The notes beneath the pieces were generated by a model. It made no database searches, was not told the DNA's origin, and saw only the letters and a list, made by a program, of their open reading frames with translations. The position numbers and the translations under genes were made by a program. From Halorussus vallis (GTDB taxonomy: Archaea; Halobacteriota; Halobacteria; Halobacteriales; Haladaptataceae), in assembly GCF_024138165.1 (NCBI RefSeq), contig NZ_CP100000.1, positions 310,001 through 374,000 on the forward strand: a stretch of 64,000 nucleotides of DNA, written 5' to 3'. Shown here one piece after another: positions 52,448-58,296 of the stretch (position 1 is the stretch's first letter; the number at the start of each line of letters is the position of its first letter).

Positions 52448-52598
52448 TAATCCACCCTCGTGGCACTTCCACCGGAGAATTTCTAATCAGTCTTTGTAGG
52501 ACTTCGACTCCATAAATCACTCTCCGTGGCACATCCTTTCTGCGCTTTTCCGGCACTACGGCAGAAGATAAGGTCACTTATCCGTACTCGTGGGACAG
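52448..52598. repeat. three degenerate 21-bp iterons about 65 bp apart
   Basis: TAATCCACCCTCGTGGCACTT (52448-52468, 21 bp), AAATCACTCTCCGTGGCACAT (52514-52534, 21 bp) and TTATCCGTACTCGTGGGACAG (52578-52598, 21 bp) share the pattern WAATC...CGTGGCAC. Spacing is 66 and 64 bp, about six helical turns. They end 37 bp before the DUF5805 start and look like an array of protein binding sites. Confidence 0.5.
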
Positions 52599-52634
52599 AT
52601 TGATGTACCGGGGGTGAGAGGGTCCGAACGACCG

Positions 52635-53036
52635 ATGAGCGAGGGTTCCGACACCGACCGCGCCGTGGTGAAGACGTTCGTCCCCCAATATCAAAAATCC
52701 GAGTGGAAGCGTCACGCCGACGAACTCGACATGAGCCAGAGCGAGTTCGTCAGATCGATGGTACAGGCCGGGAGACGCGGGTTCTCGGTCGAAAATTCGG
52801 AGAACCGTTCGGAAGGCGGTTCTCCACCCTCCGACCCCGGGGGTGACGGCCTCGAAACACGCCTCCTCGCGCTTCTCGATTCGGCCGACCACCTGTCGTG
52901 GGACCAACTAGTCGAGGAACTGGCCGGCGACTTCGAAGACCGACTGGAGGATACACTCCAGCGACTCCAGAACGAGAACCGCGTCCAGTACAGCGGCCGC
53001 CGAGGCGGCTACACGGTGGTGGGCGATGGCGAGTAG
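52635..53036 (+). CDS. DUF5805 domain protein
   Basis: This is a 133-residue protein. The start taken is the ATG giving MSEGSDTDRAVVKTFVPQYQ, because the upstream in-frame stretch overlaps the third iteron. Residues about 8-40 (VKTFVPQYQKSEWKRHADEL, DMSQSEFVRSMVQAGRR) resemble a ribbon-helix-helix-type DNA-binding unit. A variable Ser/Gly linker contains a small inverted repeat (52799-52825). The C-terminal half, LETRLLALLDSADHLSWDQL, looks like a winged-helix domain. In haloarchaea this family is regularly paired with a tyrosine recombinase, as here (11-nt overlap), so it may control or guide recombination. Confidence 0.85.
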   Translation: MSEGSDTDRAVVKTFVPQYQKSEWKRHADELDMSQSEFVRSMVQAGRRGFSVENSENRSEGGSPPSDPGGDGLETRLLALLDSADHLSWDQLVEELAGDFEDRLEDTLQRLQNENRVQYSGRRGGYTVVGDGE

Positions 53037-54087
53037 CCGACCGACTGGCGGCGAGGTCGAAACCGACGACCCCGTGGGTTACTTCCTCGAAGACCTCCGG
53101 TTCCACGGCAAGAGCGAGCGCACCCGCGAGTACTACGAGCGAGTGCTCCGGGAGTTCGAGGCGTTCCTCGGCGACCCCGACCGCAACCCCGGCGGCGTCT
53201 CGCTCGCACCGGGCGAGGCCACCCAGCGCGAGTGCATGGCGTGGGTCCACAGCCTCCGAGGCGACCTCGCCGAGAGCACCATCGCGACGTACGCCTCCTA
53301 CCTCCACCGCTTCTACGCCTACATGACCCAGGTCGGGGCGTTCGACTCGAATCCGATGGCGCTCGTCGCCGAGGAGATGACCGAGTCCATCGACAAGGAC
53401 CCCACCCGCCGGGAGATCTCGGTCGAGCAGATGCGGGGGTTCGTCGCCGGCATCGGCCACCCCCTCGAACGCGCGGCGGTCGTCACGTTGCTGAAGACCG
53501 GGATGCGTGTCGGCGAACTCTGTAACCTCGACCTGCGAGACCTGCGACTTACCGGCGAGGCCGCGGAGGTATACGACCTCGGCTCGCGGCCCGCGCTCGA
53601 CGGTCGCGGCGAGTCGCTGTTCGTCGCAAGCGACGTGGGTCGCGGCGACGTGGTCAACGGCGAGGAGCGGTCGGCCGCCAACAAGCGAAAGCGCGACACC
53701 GTGATTCCGGTGGACGCCGAACTCGCGGCCGAACTCGCCCGCTGGCTGGCAATTCGCCCCGACACCGTCTCGGAGGCCGAACCGCTGTTCGTGAGCACGC
53801 GCCGCCAGTGGGGCCGCCGGCTCACCCCGCAGATGGTCCGCAACGCCGTCGAAACCCACGCCCGCGAGGCCGGGTGGTACCGCGAGGGCGGCGGCGCCGA
53901 GGAGAACGTCACGCCCCACTACTTCCGGCACTTCTTCACGACCCACCTCCGGGACAGAACCGGCGACAGGGGCATCGTGAAGTACCTCCGCGGGGACGTG
54001 GCCGAAGACATCATCGACACCTACACCCACAACTGGGGCGACCGAGTGCGCGAGGTGTACGAGGCGAACGTCTACTCGCTGTTCTGA
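53026..54087 (+). CDS. XerC/D-like tyrosine recombinase
   Basis: This 353-residue protein has an N-terminal SAM-like DNA-binding domain (residues about 15-105, TREYYERVLREFEAFLGD). Its catalytic domain has the RKHRHY set: R161 in LKTGMRVGELCNL, a lysine in KRKRDTVIPVD, H298 and R301 in PHYFRHFFTTHL, H335 in IIDTYTHNW and Y345 in VREVYEANVY (Y350 is a second candidate). It starts inside DUF5805 with an 11-nt overlap, so the two are translated together. The pair is chromosomal in many haloarchaea and probably not an integrase of a provirus. Confidence 0.9.
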   Translation: MASSRPTGGEVETDDPVGYFLEDLRFHGKSERTREYYERVLREFEAFLGDPDRNPGGVSLAPGEATQRECMAWVHSLRGDLAESTIATYASYLHRFYAYMTQVGAFDSNPMALVAEEMTESIDKDPTRREISVEQMRGFVAGIGHPLERAAVVTLLKTGMRVGELCNLDLRDLRLTGEAAEVYDLGSRPALDGRGESLFVASDVGRGDVVNGEERSAANKRKRDTVIPVDAELAAELARWLAIRPDTVSEAEPLFVSTRRQWGRRLTPQMVRNAVETHAREAGWYREGGGAEENVTPHYFRHFFTTHLRDRTGDRGIVKYLRGDVAEDIIDTYTHNWGDRVREVYEANVYSLF

Positions 54088-54877: not shown

Positions 54878-57037
54878 TCAGCCGTCTCCGAACGCCGACA
54901 GCCGGACTTCCTCCACGTCGCGCAAGTAGCGCCGAATCCGCGCGCGGTCCCAGCCCAGCGGCGAAACCACGCTCTCGGCCGCCCGAATCAGGCGGTCCTC
55001 GTAGAACTCGACGTCGTAGGGCGTTTCCTCGTCGAGTTCGAAGTCCAGGCGCACGCGCTCGCGCGAGCGCGCCGAGTCGTCGACGACGACGAAGTCGAAC
55101 GACTGGCCCTGTCGCGGGTCGAGTCCGGCCGCCTTCGCGCGGTCGAGCGCCGCCACCGTTCGGGTTCGCCGGCGGTACGCCTCCGGACGCTTGAACGCCC
55201 GGGTCGTGACCAGCAAGTCCTCGGTCGGAACGTCGCCCGCCCGAAGTTCGCCGAGTCGGCGTTTCAGCGCGTCGCAGACCGGTTCGGGCTTTCGGTGGCG
55301 GTCGACCGCCCGGAGGAGTTCCCGCTGGGTGTCCGCGACGAACGCCGGGGTGGACCGCTGGCGAGCCTCGATGCCCCGAACCTTGTACTCGTCGGCGTCG
55401 CGTTCCTTGCCGAAGTACCGGTTGAGCGCGCCCGCCGACGAGTCGCGCTTCGGGACGAAGCAGATCCAGTCGTACGTCGCCTCGTGTTCGAGTCGAACAC
55501 CGACGTCGGCGGTGACCGCCTCGGTCACCGCCGAGAGCGGCGTCGGGTCGCGGTCTTCGACGGGCGTCACCCAGAGGCTGTCGACGATGCCGTGGACGAC
55601 CCGCCAGCCCTCTGCCTCGAACGCCTCCTTGGCTCGCAGGAGCACGTCGCGGGCGACGGCGTTGATGGCCTCGTGACACTCGATGCGGCCGAACTTCGCG
55701 TTCCGGTAGCCCTGGTAGCCAAAACAGGAAACCAGAATCCACTTGATGGCGCTGGCGGTCCGCCGGAGGTCGGCCTCCCGGTCGGGGTCGTCGGTTTCGC
55801 GGGCCTCGCGCTTCATCCGCGCGCGGTCGTCCAACAGCGGTCGGAGCACGTCGGGGAGGAACCCCCGGTCGTCGCAGACGCTGTACCCCAGTTCGGGCAC
55901 GTCCTCGCGGTCGGCGTGGCAGTCGCAGCAGACGGTGTCGGGCGAGACGTTGTACCGACAGATGACGTTGGGGTACAGCGACGCGAAGTCGACCTCGTAG
56001 ACCCCCTCGTGGAGGCCGACCTCCGGCGAGAAGGTGAACCCGCCGCGGTCGGCGGCGTGGAGCGTCCGCACGTCCTTGAACGCCTCCGGTTCCCACTTGT
56101 TCCACGGAATCAGCACGTCGCGGTCGCGGGCCTCGCGGATTTGAATCGCAGTGAGCACGGTGCCGATGCTGGCCCGGCCAACCTCCTGAATCGGCTGCCA
56201 CGACCGCGAAACCAGGTACTCCAGGCCGGCGAGTCCGGCCTGCCCCCAGAGGAAACTGTTCGAGGCGTCCACGACGGCCCGGCCCGGTACGTCGTATCCG
56301 CCGCGCGAGCGACCGACTCGGCCGTCGCTTCCGGCGGTACCGCTCCCGTCGGTGTCACCCTCGTCGGTGTCGGCTCCTCCCGTCTCCCGCTCGGGACGTC
56401 GACCGAGTGCGAACTCCTCGCGGCCGTGTTCGTCGGCCTTCTCGGCGAGCAACGCGAGGAGTTCGCCGTGGCTCACGACGAGTACGTCGGGGTCGGCGTC
56501 CGCGAGTCGGTGCTCGACCACCTCCAACATCACGTCCTCGGTGGCTCTGAGGAAGTCGCCGTCGACGGTGAGTCGCGAAATGTCGCGGTCGGCGAGTCGC
56601 TTGCGGGTCGTCCCGAGTTCGAGCGTCCGGAGGTCGACGTCCTCGGGCGTCGTCGGGTCGGTGCCGGTGTCGATGCAGTAGCGGAACTGCGGCGAGAGGT
56701 CGACATCGAACAGTCGGAACGTTCCCGGCGGATACTCGCCGCGTTCGTGGACGCCGCGAATCTCGCGGGCGAGCGTTCGGACCTCGTCCACCCGGGCGAG
56801 GTCGGCGCGCAGGACGAGTTCGCGCTCGTCGGCCCGCAAGTCGACGTAGCGTTCCTCGAAGGCGGTCCCGACGACCTTCGGATCGGCGTCTAGACGCGCC
56901 CGCAGGTCGGCGAGTTTCGACCGCTCGGCGGCGACGAACAGCGCAGGTTCGTACTCGTCGTTTCGCCGGGTCGTCACGCCGTCTTCGGTGCGGTGCCACT
57001 CCACGACCGCGTCGTCGTAGAAGTCGACTTTGAACAT
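54878..57037 (-). CDS. polB2: PolB2-clade family-B DNA polymerase with altered motif C
   Basis: This 719-residue protein has motif A YEVDFASLYPNVI (D350), motif B AIKWILVSCFGYQGYRNAKF (K432) and motif C VHGIVDSLWV. In motif C the first Asp of DTDS is Ile484, while D486 is kept. It is short for a replicative PolB, and no intact exonuclease motifs were found. The archaeal PolB2 group has been described as containing disrupted polymerase motifs, although crenarchaeal members have been reported active in translesion synthesis. Residues about 220-245 are an acidic insertion. CCDCH...C (residues about 370-388) may bind zinc. It is the third gene of a three-gene operon (1-nt gap). Confidence 0.88.
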   Translation of the reverse strand: MFKVDFYDDAVVEWHRTEDGVTTRRNDEYEPALFVAAERSKLADLRARLDADPKVVGTAFEERYVDLRADERELVLRADLARVDEVRTLAREIRGVHERGEYPPGTFRLFDVDLSPQFRYCIDTGTDPTTPEDVDLRTLELGTTRKRLADRDISRLTVDGDFLRATEDVMLEVVEHRLADADPDVLVVSHGELLALLAEKADEHGREEFALGRRPERETGGADTDEGDTDGSGTAGSDGRVGRSRGGYDVPGRAVVDASNSFLWGQAGLAGLEYLVSRSWQPIQEVGRASIGTVLTAIQIREARDRDVLIPWNKWEPEAFKDVRTLHAADRGGFTFSPEVGLHEGVYEVDFASLYPNVICRYNVSPDTVCCDCHADREDVPELGYSVCDDRGFLPDVLRPLLDDRARMKREARETDDPDREADLRRTASAIKWILVSCFGYQGYRNAKFGRIECHEAINAVARDVLLRAKEAFEAEGWRVVHGIVDSLWVTPVEDRDPTPLSAVTEAVTADVGVRLEHEATYDWICFVPKRDSSAGALNRYFGKERDADEYKVRGIEARQRSTPAFVADTQRELLRAVDRHRKPEPVCDALKRRLGELRAGDVPTEDLLVTTRAFKRPEAYRRRTRTVAALDRAKAAGLDPRQGQSFDFVVVDDSARSRERVRLDFELDEETPYDVEFYEDRLIRAAESVVSPLGWDRARIRRYLRDVEEVRLSAFGDG

Positions 57038-57038
57038 G

Positions 57039-57347
57039 TTACTCGGCGGGTCGGTCCGGGGTCGGCTCCGGGTCGGCGCCGTCGTCCTCGTCCGATTCCG
57101 TCGCGGCGTCGAGGCGCCGCCGGAGTCGACGAATCTCGACCTCCTGGGACAACAGCACCGACAGCACGAACGCGCGTTCTGGGTCGGCGGCGTTCATGTA
57201 TCCCGCGGCGTCGGCGTGCTCGCGGGCGCGGTCGAACAGTCGGTCGAAGTGGGGTTTGTACCGACGGCGGAGTCCCCGGCGGTAGGCCGACCAGTCGTCC
57301 TCGTAGCGGTCGAGGAAATCTCGGAAGGTGGGGTTGGTCCGACCCAT
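57039..57347 (-). CDS. small helical protein of the PolB2 operon
   Basis: This 102-residue protein reads MGRTNPTFRDFLDRYEDDWS, with helical FDRLFDRAREHADAAGYMNA and a coiled-coil-like VLSVLLSQEVEIRRLRRRLD. The C terminus is acidic and disordered. It overlaps neither neighbour: 1 nt separates it from the RecA-like gene upstream and 1 nt from polB2. It may tether the RecA-like protein to the polymerase. The family is specific to this operon type. Confidence 0.75.
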   Translation of the reverse strand: MGRTNPTFRDFLDRYEDDWSAYRRGLRRRYKPHFDRLFDRAREHADAAGYMNAADPERAFVLSVLLSQEVEIRRLRRRLDAATESDEDDGADPEPTPDRPAE

Positions 57348-57348
57348 G

Positions 57349-58026
57349 CTACACCTCGCCCGCGACGAGTCCGGCGGCCGTCGCCGCGGCGACCGGGTCG
57401 TCCTCGGCCACCGCGCCGAGCAACTCGACCCAGTAGGGGATGGTGGTCTGCCAGAAGCCGTCGTCGAGGTAGACGGTCGTCTCGAAGTCGTCGCTCGCGT
57501 ACCGAAGTCCCGCATCCGTCCGCGTGCACTCGATTTCGGCGTCGGCGTAATCGGCGACGAGGGCGGCCGTTTCGGCGTCGGCCCCCTCGGCCGTGACCAC
57601 CACCGGGAGGTCGAGCGCGCTAGCGAGTTCGGCGAGGACGGCGAGCGACGCGGAGAGCAGGTCCCGGCCCTCCCGGTCGGGCAGGTCGTCGTCCCGGTAG
57701 AGCGACGCGACGCAGGGCGCGACGACGAGCGCGGTCGACGGCGACGCCCGCCGGGCGGCCGCCCGCACGAGCGAGTGGTGCTGGTAGGCCGTGAACGCGC
57801 GAGCGACTCGGACCCCGTCGAGTCGTCGCCGACCCGGCGCGAGTTCGTGGAGCGCGTAGGTCGAGGCCTGGTTTCGCGCGTCGACCCACAGCGTCTCTCC
57901 GGTCCGCTCGCCCAGTTCGTGGAGGGCGAGTCGGTGGAGCGCGGTCGAGCGCCGTGAGGGCCGTTCGAGCACCGTCAGTCCCGGTTCCAAGCGTGGCAAC
58001 GTCTTCGAGTGGGTTCCTCCCGTCAT
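57349..58026 (-). CDS. RecA-fold protein lacking Walker A residues
   Basis: This 225-residue protein starts MTGGTHSKTLPRLEPGLTVL. The RadA/RecA core pattern is recognisable in DGVRVARAFTAYQHHSLVRAAA and TALVVAPCVASLYRDDDL, but where RadA has G-E-x-G-x-G-K-T this protein has ERPSRRSTAL (residues 21-30), so the glycines and the P-loop lysine are gone. It therefore probably cannot hydrolyse ATP in the normal way. It is the promoter-proximal gene of the PolB2 operon. The pairing recalls bacterial ImuA (RecA-like) with translesion polymerases. Confidence 0.8.
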   Translation of the reverse strand: MTGGTHSKTLPRLEPGLTVLERPSRRSTALHRLALHELGERTGETLWVDARNQASTYALHELAPGRRRLDGVRVARAFTAYQHHSLVRAAARRASPSTALVVAPCVASLYRDDDLPDREGRDLLSASLAVLAELASALDLPVVVTAEGADAETAALVADYADAEIECTRTDAGLRYASDDFETTVYLDDGFWQTTIPYWVELLGAVAEDDPVAAATAAGLVAGEV

Positions 58027-58042
58027 AGCACCTCTCCACTCA

Positions 58043-58072
58043 CCGATAAATCGGAGTACCGTTTAACGGTAC
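58043..58072 (-). promoter_or_regulatory. PolB2-operon promoter and operator-like dyad
   Basis: ATTTATC (minus strand, 58051-58045) is a TATA-like box centred 22 nt before the operon ATG. Just upstream lies a perfect 8-bp-arm dyad, 58056-58063 and 58065-58072, around one base. A smaller dyad CCGAT/ATCGG (58043-58047/58050-58054) overlaps the TATA box. This layout suits a repressor covering the BRE/TATA region. Confidence 0.55.
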
Positions 58073-58296
58073 GCCGTCCGCGGAGTGAAAGTGAAACTGG
58101 AGCGTCGGGGCGGAACGCGGCAGCTCGCTCCCGTAGACGGGCGTTCAGGGGGTCTGCTCGGCGGTGAAAGTGGTCGGATGACGGGAAGGGTGGCGCGACC
58201 GGGCGAGTGGCCTAGTGCGCCGGCCGGGGTTCGTGATGAGTGCGGGTGCGGCGTTAGTGTGCTGGAGCCGATTCGGGATTCCGCGAACGGAAGCAA

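Follow-up and report, generated by a model that had tools for sequence, protein, structure and literature searches.

The closest described relatives of the locus reported here are the archaeal PolB2 operons and the Dpo2 polymerase of Sulfolobus. From gene neighbourhoods, Makarova et al. (2014; PMC4104785) predicted an operon composed of PolB2, the small helical protein arCOG07300 and an inactivated RadA, with haloarchaea mentioned, and put forward a DNA-damage complex. The two partners received the names PPB2 and iRadA from Timinskas et al. (2025; PMC11791011), who modelled a heteropentamer of composition PolB2-iRadA-PPB2(x3), the 40 complexes modelled having AlphaFold ranking scores of 0.80–0.91. 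In these models the MGRT arm touches PolB2, iRadA and probably DNA, and iRadA is contacted by a PolB2 loop preceding the D(K/R) motif, in the manner of a RadA-RadA subunit contact. Sulfolobus Dpo2 was described as an active, exonuclease-free polymerase capable of mismatch extension and with an extender role, and PolB2 as having HxxxD for YxDTD in an alignment which includes Haloferax volcanii PolB2 (Feng et al. 2022; PMC8764526), while targeted mutagenesis in S. islandicus was found to be due to Dpo2 alone (Feng et al. 2020; PMC7390963). For haloarchaea, polB2 was non-essential in Halobacterium NRC-1 (PMC1906834), and the Haloferax volcanii gene (HVO_A0065), likewise a haloarchaeal polB2 and located near a radA-like gene, was reported to be deletable in an unpublished result cited in PMC7776575; the available portions of these two papers report no damage phenotype following loss of polB2. 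We found no activity experiment on any haloarchaeal PolB2 in the literature.

The stretch of DNA that we analyzed, referred to as the window, comprises 64,000 nucleotides from Halorussus vallis (contig NZ_CP100000.1, positions 310,001 to 374,000). It contains three minus-strand genes in the order iRadA-PPB2-PolB2, an order already described (PMC11791011). These encode a 225 aa iRadA with a RadA/Rad51 fold but without Walker A and without the N-terminal helical domain (57349..58026), a 102 aa PPB2 of the arCOG07300 type (57039..57347) and a 719 aa B-family DNA polymerase, PolB2, with an HGIVDS motif, an ADRGG loop and a degenerate exonuclease domain (54878..57037). Single-base gaps at 57348 (iRadA/PPB2) and 57038 (PPB2/PolB2) separate the genes, and both these coordinates and the translation of the middle gene agree with the original prediction, made from the letters of the window, of three genes with 1-nt gaps and a small middle gene of 102 residues. 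PolB2 matched NCBIfam NF004418 with E=1.6e-271 (score 902.7 against a curated cut-off of 692) and comparison of the window genes with three relatives gave a dN/dS of 0.17–0.41, indicating that the operon is under purifying selection. Because of this match and the conservation of all three genes, chance is excluded as the source of the trio.

Every family sequence feature tested was present, and the trio appears to be a haloarchaeal PolB2 mutasome operon. We consider it highly probable that it specifies an error-prone bypass polymerase working with an iRadA of structural role and with a PPB2 arm. As the mutasome idea is already established in the literature, the window locus is a further member of a system already described, haloarchaea included, and is ordinary for haloarchaea. 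It is like the published PolB2 mutasome (PMC11791011, PMC4104785) in its three families, gene order, MGRT arm, D(K/R) motif, inactive RadA and degenerate exonuclease; it differs in that the window copy is haloarchaeal, belongs to a distinct clade and comes from a genome with four complete operons.

Alignment of the window PolB2 showed that motif A reads DFASLYPN with its Asp kept (D350) and that motif C, where YxDTDS is expected, reads H482-G-I-V-D486-S (HxxxD), the first Asp being replaced and the second kept, just as predicted from the occurrence of GIVDS for GDTDS. The corresponding motif C residues are IID in S. islandicus Dpo2, which is known biochemically whereas the window PolB2 is known from sequence. 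Two changes on which the prediction was silent were also found: the motif B Asn was replaced (KWILVSCFGY, compared with KILANSYYGY in Pyrococcus PolB) and the exonuclease active site was lost, with Exo I DIE changed to GTT and Exo II NGD to HGE when aligned to Pyrococcus abyssi PolB (PDB 4flt). The loop WEPEAFKDVRTLHAADRGG (residues 315-333, 56039..56095, minus strand) contains a RadA-oligomerisation-like segment and, after it, the D(K/R) motif, which is D330-R331 within ADRGG, and a conserved W..E.[FY]K....L..A was present upstream of ADRGG in the PolB2 alignment. Motifs were counted in 172 distinct haloarchaeal sequences, out of 198 near-complete PolB2 retrieved; HGIVDS and [AG]DRGG were each present in 171. 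The one remaining motif C, QAIVDS in the PolB2 of Halobacterium sp. TGN-42-S1, is without the His described as invariant in PolB2.

With the exonuclease motifs, the motif B Asn and the first Asp of motif C all lost, PolB2 could be regarded as catalytically dead and the complex as having only a structural or regulatory function, such as the clearance or marking of stalled forks, which was the reading of 2008–2014 when inactivation was predicted (including in PMC4104785). We regard this as improbable, however, since Asp350 and Asp486 are retained, HGIVDS is nearly invariant in a manner that decay would not produce, Sulfolobus Dpo2 shows robust activity despite its HxxxD, and in solved structures of B-family enzymes the first Asp of motif C is oriented away from the active centre (PMC8764526). 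Decay to a pseudogene is ruled out by the low dN/dS together with the near-invariant motifs. The motif C change characterises the whole clade and is compatible with activity; it is no mark of a dead enzyme.

In one region the window PolB2 departs from its relatives and from the published mutasome (PMC11791011, PMC4104785): an acidic Gly/Asp-rich low-complexity stretch at residues ~206-250 (56288-56422) replaces a segment ending in HSPARY, which was kept by all 16 aligned relatives. As the HSPARY segment is missing, the window PolB2 may differ in detail from them. The AlphaFold model of the window PolB2, built from 17 sequences, was mediocre (pLDDT 72, pTM 0.51) and no argument was built on it.

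The P-loop position of iRadA reads ERPSRRSTAL, and Walker A (GxxxxGK[TS]) is missing. Of 146 haloarchaeal iRadA that are partners of distinct PolB2, none had GK[ST] at this position, which bears out the earlier description of a RecA-fold protein without Walker A. A G....GKT pattern found in two iRadA proved false, as it lies at residue 288, distant from the P-loop position. The Walker B Asp is also absent, RadA DSL being aligned to PAL in the iRadA family profile and to PCV in the window protein, which therefore lacks both of these elements of an active RadA or RadB recombinase. As a single query the window iRadA scored below the Rad51 and RadB model cut-offs (21.6 against 172.4 for RadB), and a profile of 19 haloarchaeal iRadA relatives matched solved RadA/Rad51 chains with a best E of 7e-10. 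The AlphaFold2 model of iRadA (pLDDT 82, pTM 0.78) gave the same result, the best 50 Foldseek matches being solely RadA, DMC1, RAD51 and RAD51-complex structures (best E ~5e-10).

No significant match was obtained for PPB2 in Pfam, NCBIfam or PDB. Its N-terminus, MGRTNPTFR, is the arm motif of the PPB2 family, with Arg9 where S. islandicus PPB2 has Thr9; the arm itself (MGRTNPT) is encoded at 57327..57347 on the minus strand, and its presumed role follows the models of PMC11791011. An xGRT N-terminus was found in 143/157 PPB2 homologues adjoining distinct haloarchaeal PolB2, where V and L as the first residue were read as GTG and TTG starts. Seven distinct intact PolB2 (L021, L042, L043, L045, L047, L183, L201) were preceded at a fixed 43 nt by an armless PPB2 relative, with no iRadA detected at these loci; this is a reduced two-gene variant and the named examples are Haladaptatus plasmids.

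Co-occurrence was determined in 322 genomes of the order which were at least 90% complete. PolB2 was present in 207, strong iRadA in 197 and PPB2 in 199, after E-value filtering had removed 25 genomes with weak RadA-level matches from the iRadA count and a single weak PPB2 match had been omitted. All three genes were found in 191 genomes and none in 109 (Fisher 1e-64 to 1e-78). Among the matches listed, 121 of 151 PolB2 had a same-strand iRadA no more than 20 kb upstream, and for 88 the distance was within 700 bp, while the rest of these 151 PolB2 included interspersed operons (2-12 kb) and copies without iRadA among the matches listed. In the interspersed operons, for example G009:C7:13904-25236 and G098:C3:111431-119175, iRadA-PPB2 and PolB2 were on the same strand, ~2-12 kb apart.

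Distance matrices from 141 operons were strongly correlated (PolB2-iRadA 0.96, PolB2-PPB2 0.93, iRadA-PPB2 0.93), and label shuffles of PolB2-iRadA gave a correlation of at most 0.15. As shared ancestry alone would yield some correlation, partners were also swapped solely inside the 12 genomes with at least two operons. Swapping iRadA lowered the PolB2-iRadA correlation from 0.981 to a mean of 0.41, and swapping PPB2 lowered the correlation from 0.950 to a mean of 0.42; the true value was reached in 0/2000 swaps in either case. The trio is therefore inherited as a unit, the outcome for which the original prediction had proposed a check, and genomes with several operons keep the partners matched set by set, which makes such genomes natural partner-swap controls. 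The mutasome signature of MGRT arm, DRGG loop, HGIVDS and RadA fold without ATP site is confirmed across haloarchaea. Partner matching is consistent with a PolB2-iRadA-PPB2 complex. A MI-APC covariation scan for interfaces across the three proteins had an effective sequence number of only 74 and was uninformative, as its signal looks phylogenetic.

In the proposed mutasome, PolB2, without proofreading, would extend from lesions or mismatched primer ends by means of the motif A Asp and the second motif C Asp. With ATP binding lost, iRadA would act as a structural subunit docking on the RadA-oligomerisation-like PolB2 loop, and PPB2, probably as a trimer, would place one MGRT arm between PolB2, iRadA and DNA, the predicted outcome being damage-inducible, error-prone bypass synthesis. 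Catalytic activity and damage induction in this scheme are drawn from the Sulfolobus literature and the architecture of the complex from the published AlphaFold models, and we infer that the Halorussus copy would do the same. The original prediction, a complex of three parts for damage tolerance whose RecA-like subunit is structural and whose small protein is an adaptor, is supported and corresponds to the prediction of Makarova et al. and the models of Timinskas et al.; that interpretation was largely right, yet it is not new, the system having been described before. The proposed complex resembles E. coli Pol V (UmuD'2C-RecA) and bacterial ImuA/ImuB in combining an error-prone polymerase, a RecA-family subunit and a small partner, although those contain a Y-family polymerase, active RecA (Pol V) and an unrelated small subunit, and the likeness is one of analogy only. 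The Halorussus genome has one Y-family polymerase. Tractable haloarchaea, polB2 having been deleted in Halobacterium and reportedly in Haloferax volcanii, would permit tests of a role in mutagenesis outside Sulfolobus.

A candidate promoter region of the operon lies upstream of the iRadA start at 58027..58110 (minus strand) and contains TTTCACTTTCAC, an CCGTTAAACGG palindrome and an AT-rich CGATTTATC box. Within 58040-58110 the elements TTTCACTTTCAC, GTACCGTTAAACGGTAC and CCGATTTATCGG are partly conserved in Halorussus orthologues and form a possible operator and TATA region. An ANTTTC motif is known from Sulfolobus and TTTCACTTTC is similar to it. As TTTCACTTTC was found in only 4/79 haloarchaeal upstream regions, those of close relatives of the window copy and of one Halobacterium, the element is local. 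A general haloarchaeal damage box was rejected on this count, and with 11 genome-wide matches against 7 for the reversed control a regulon was unsupported.

Four complete PolB2 operons were found in this Halorussus genome, the window copy on a 3.96 Mb replicon, two near-identical copies 121 kb apart on a 167 kb contig (G000:C4:35945-38083 and C4:157230-159365) and one on a 131 kb contig (G000:C5:41448-43541). A tree of 46 PolB2 placed the window copy in a fully supported clade of 15, mostly on chromosome-sized contigs, and the other copies of the same genome outside this clade. PolB2 is common on haloarchaeal plasmids: 135 PLSDB records, mostly from haloarchaea, matched it and 86 carried 80% or more of PolB2 at a single site. 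The presence of four complete operons in a genome, the plasmid frequency of PolB2 and the separate clade of the window copy are less documented so far.

An operon that mainly serves the replication of plasmids or the control of origins, as a polymerase cassette moving along with replicons and Orc genes, would suit this plasmid frequency, the arORC2 linkage in euryarchaea (PMC4104785) and the situation in Halobacterium NRC-1 and Haloarcula marismortui, where polB2 is extrachromosomal and divergent from an orc gene (PMC1906834). We judge this very unlikely, since the main replicon carries the window copy and no orc gene adjoins it, its clade is mostly on contigs of chromosome size, the Halobacterium NRC-1 polB2 (~49% identical to the window copy) is non-essential despite its location on pNRC200 (PMC1906834), and some bacterial operons carry lexA (PMC11791011, PMC4104785). 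Returning to the bypass mutasome, it is possible, and we put this forward tentatively, that haloarchaea run several parallel, non-interchangeable mutasomes per cell, every polymerase being kept with its own iRadA and PPB2. One deep clade, that of the window copy, would then reside for the most part on replicons of chromosome size, and the other clades frequently on plasmids. If true, the plasmid-borne mutasomes would be an archaeal counterpart of the mucAB and rumAB mutagenesis genes on bacterial mobile elements.

The neighbours of the window operon are a DUF5805 gene and an overlapping tyrosine recombinase gene (window 52590-54087). The same pair adjoins the PolB2 operon in Halorussus litoreus, so a fresh mobile insertion was rejected and the neighbourhood is older. 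A full PolB2 operon was also found on a 7 kb contig (JALDAF010000058.1) binned to a nanohaloarchaeon, so that either the operon was transferred to a DPANN archaeon or the contig was misbinned. In the Halorussus genome a PolB2 C-terminal fragment at G000:C1:3221925-3223067 (L034:8965-10086) starts at motif A, is without PPB2 and iRadA, and adjoins an apparent tyrosine recombinase.
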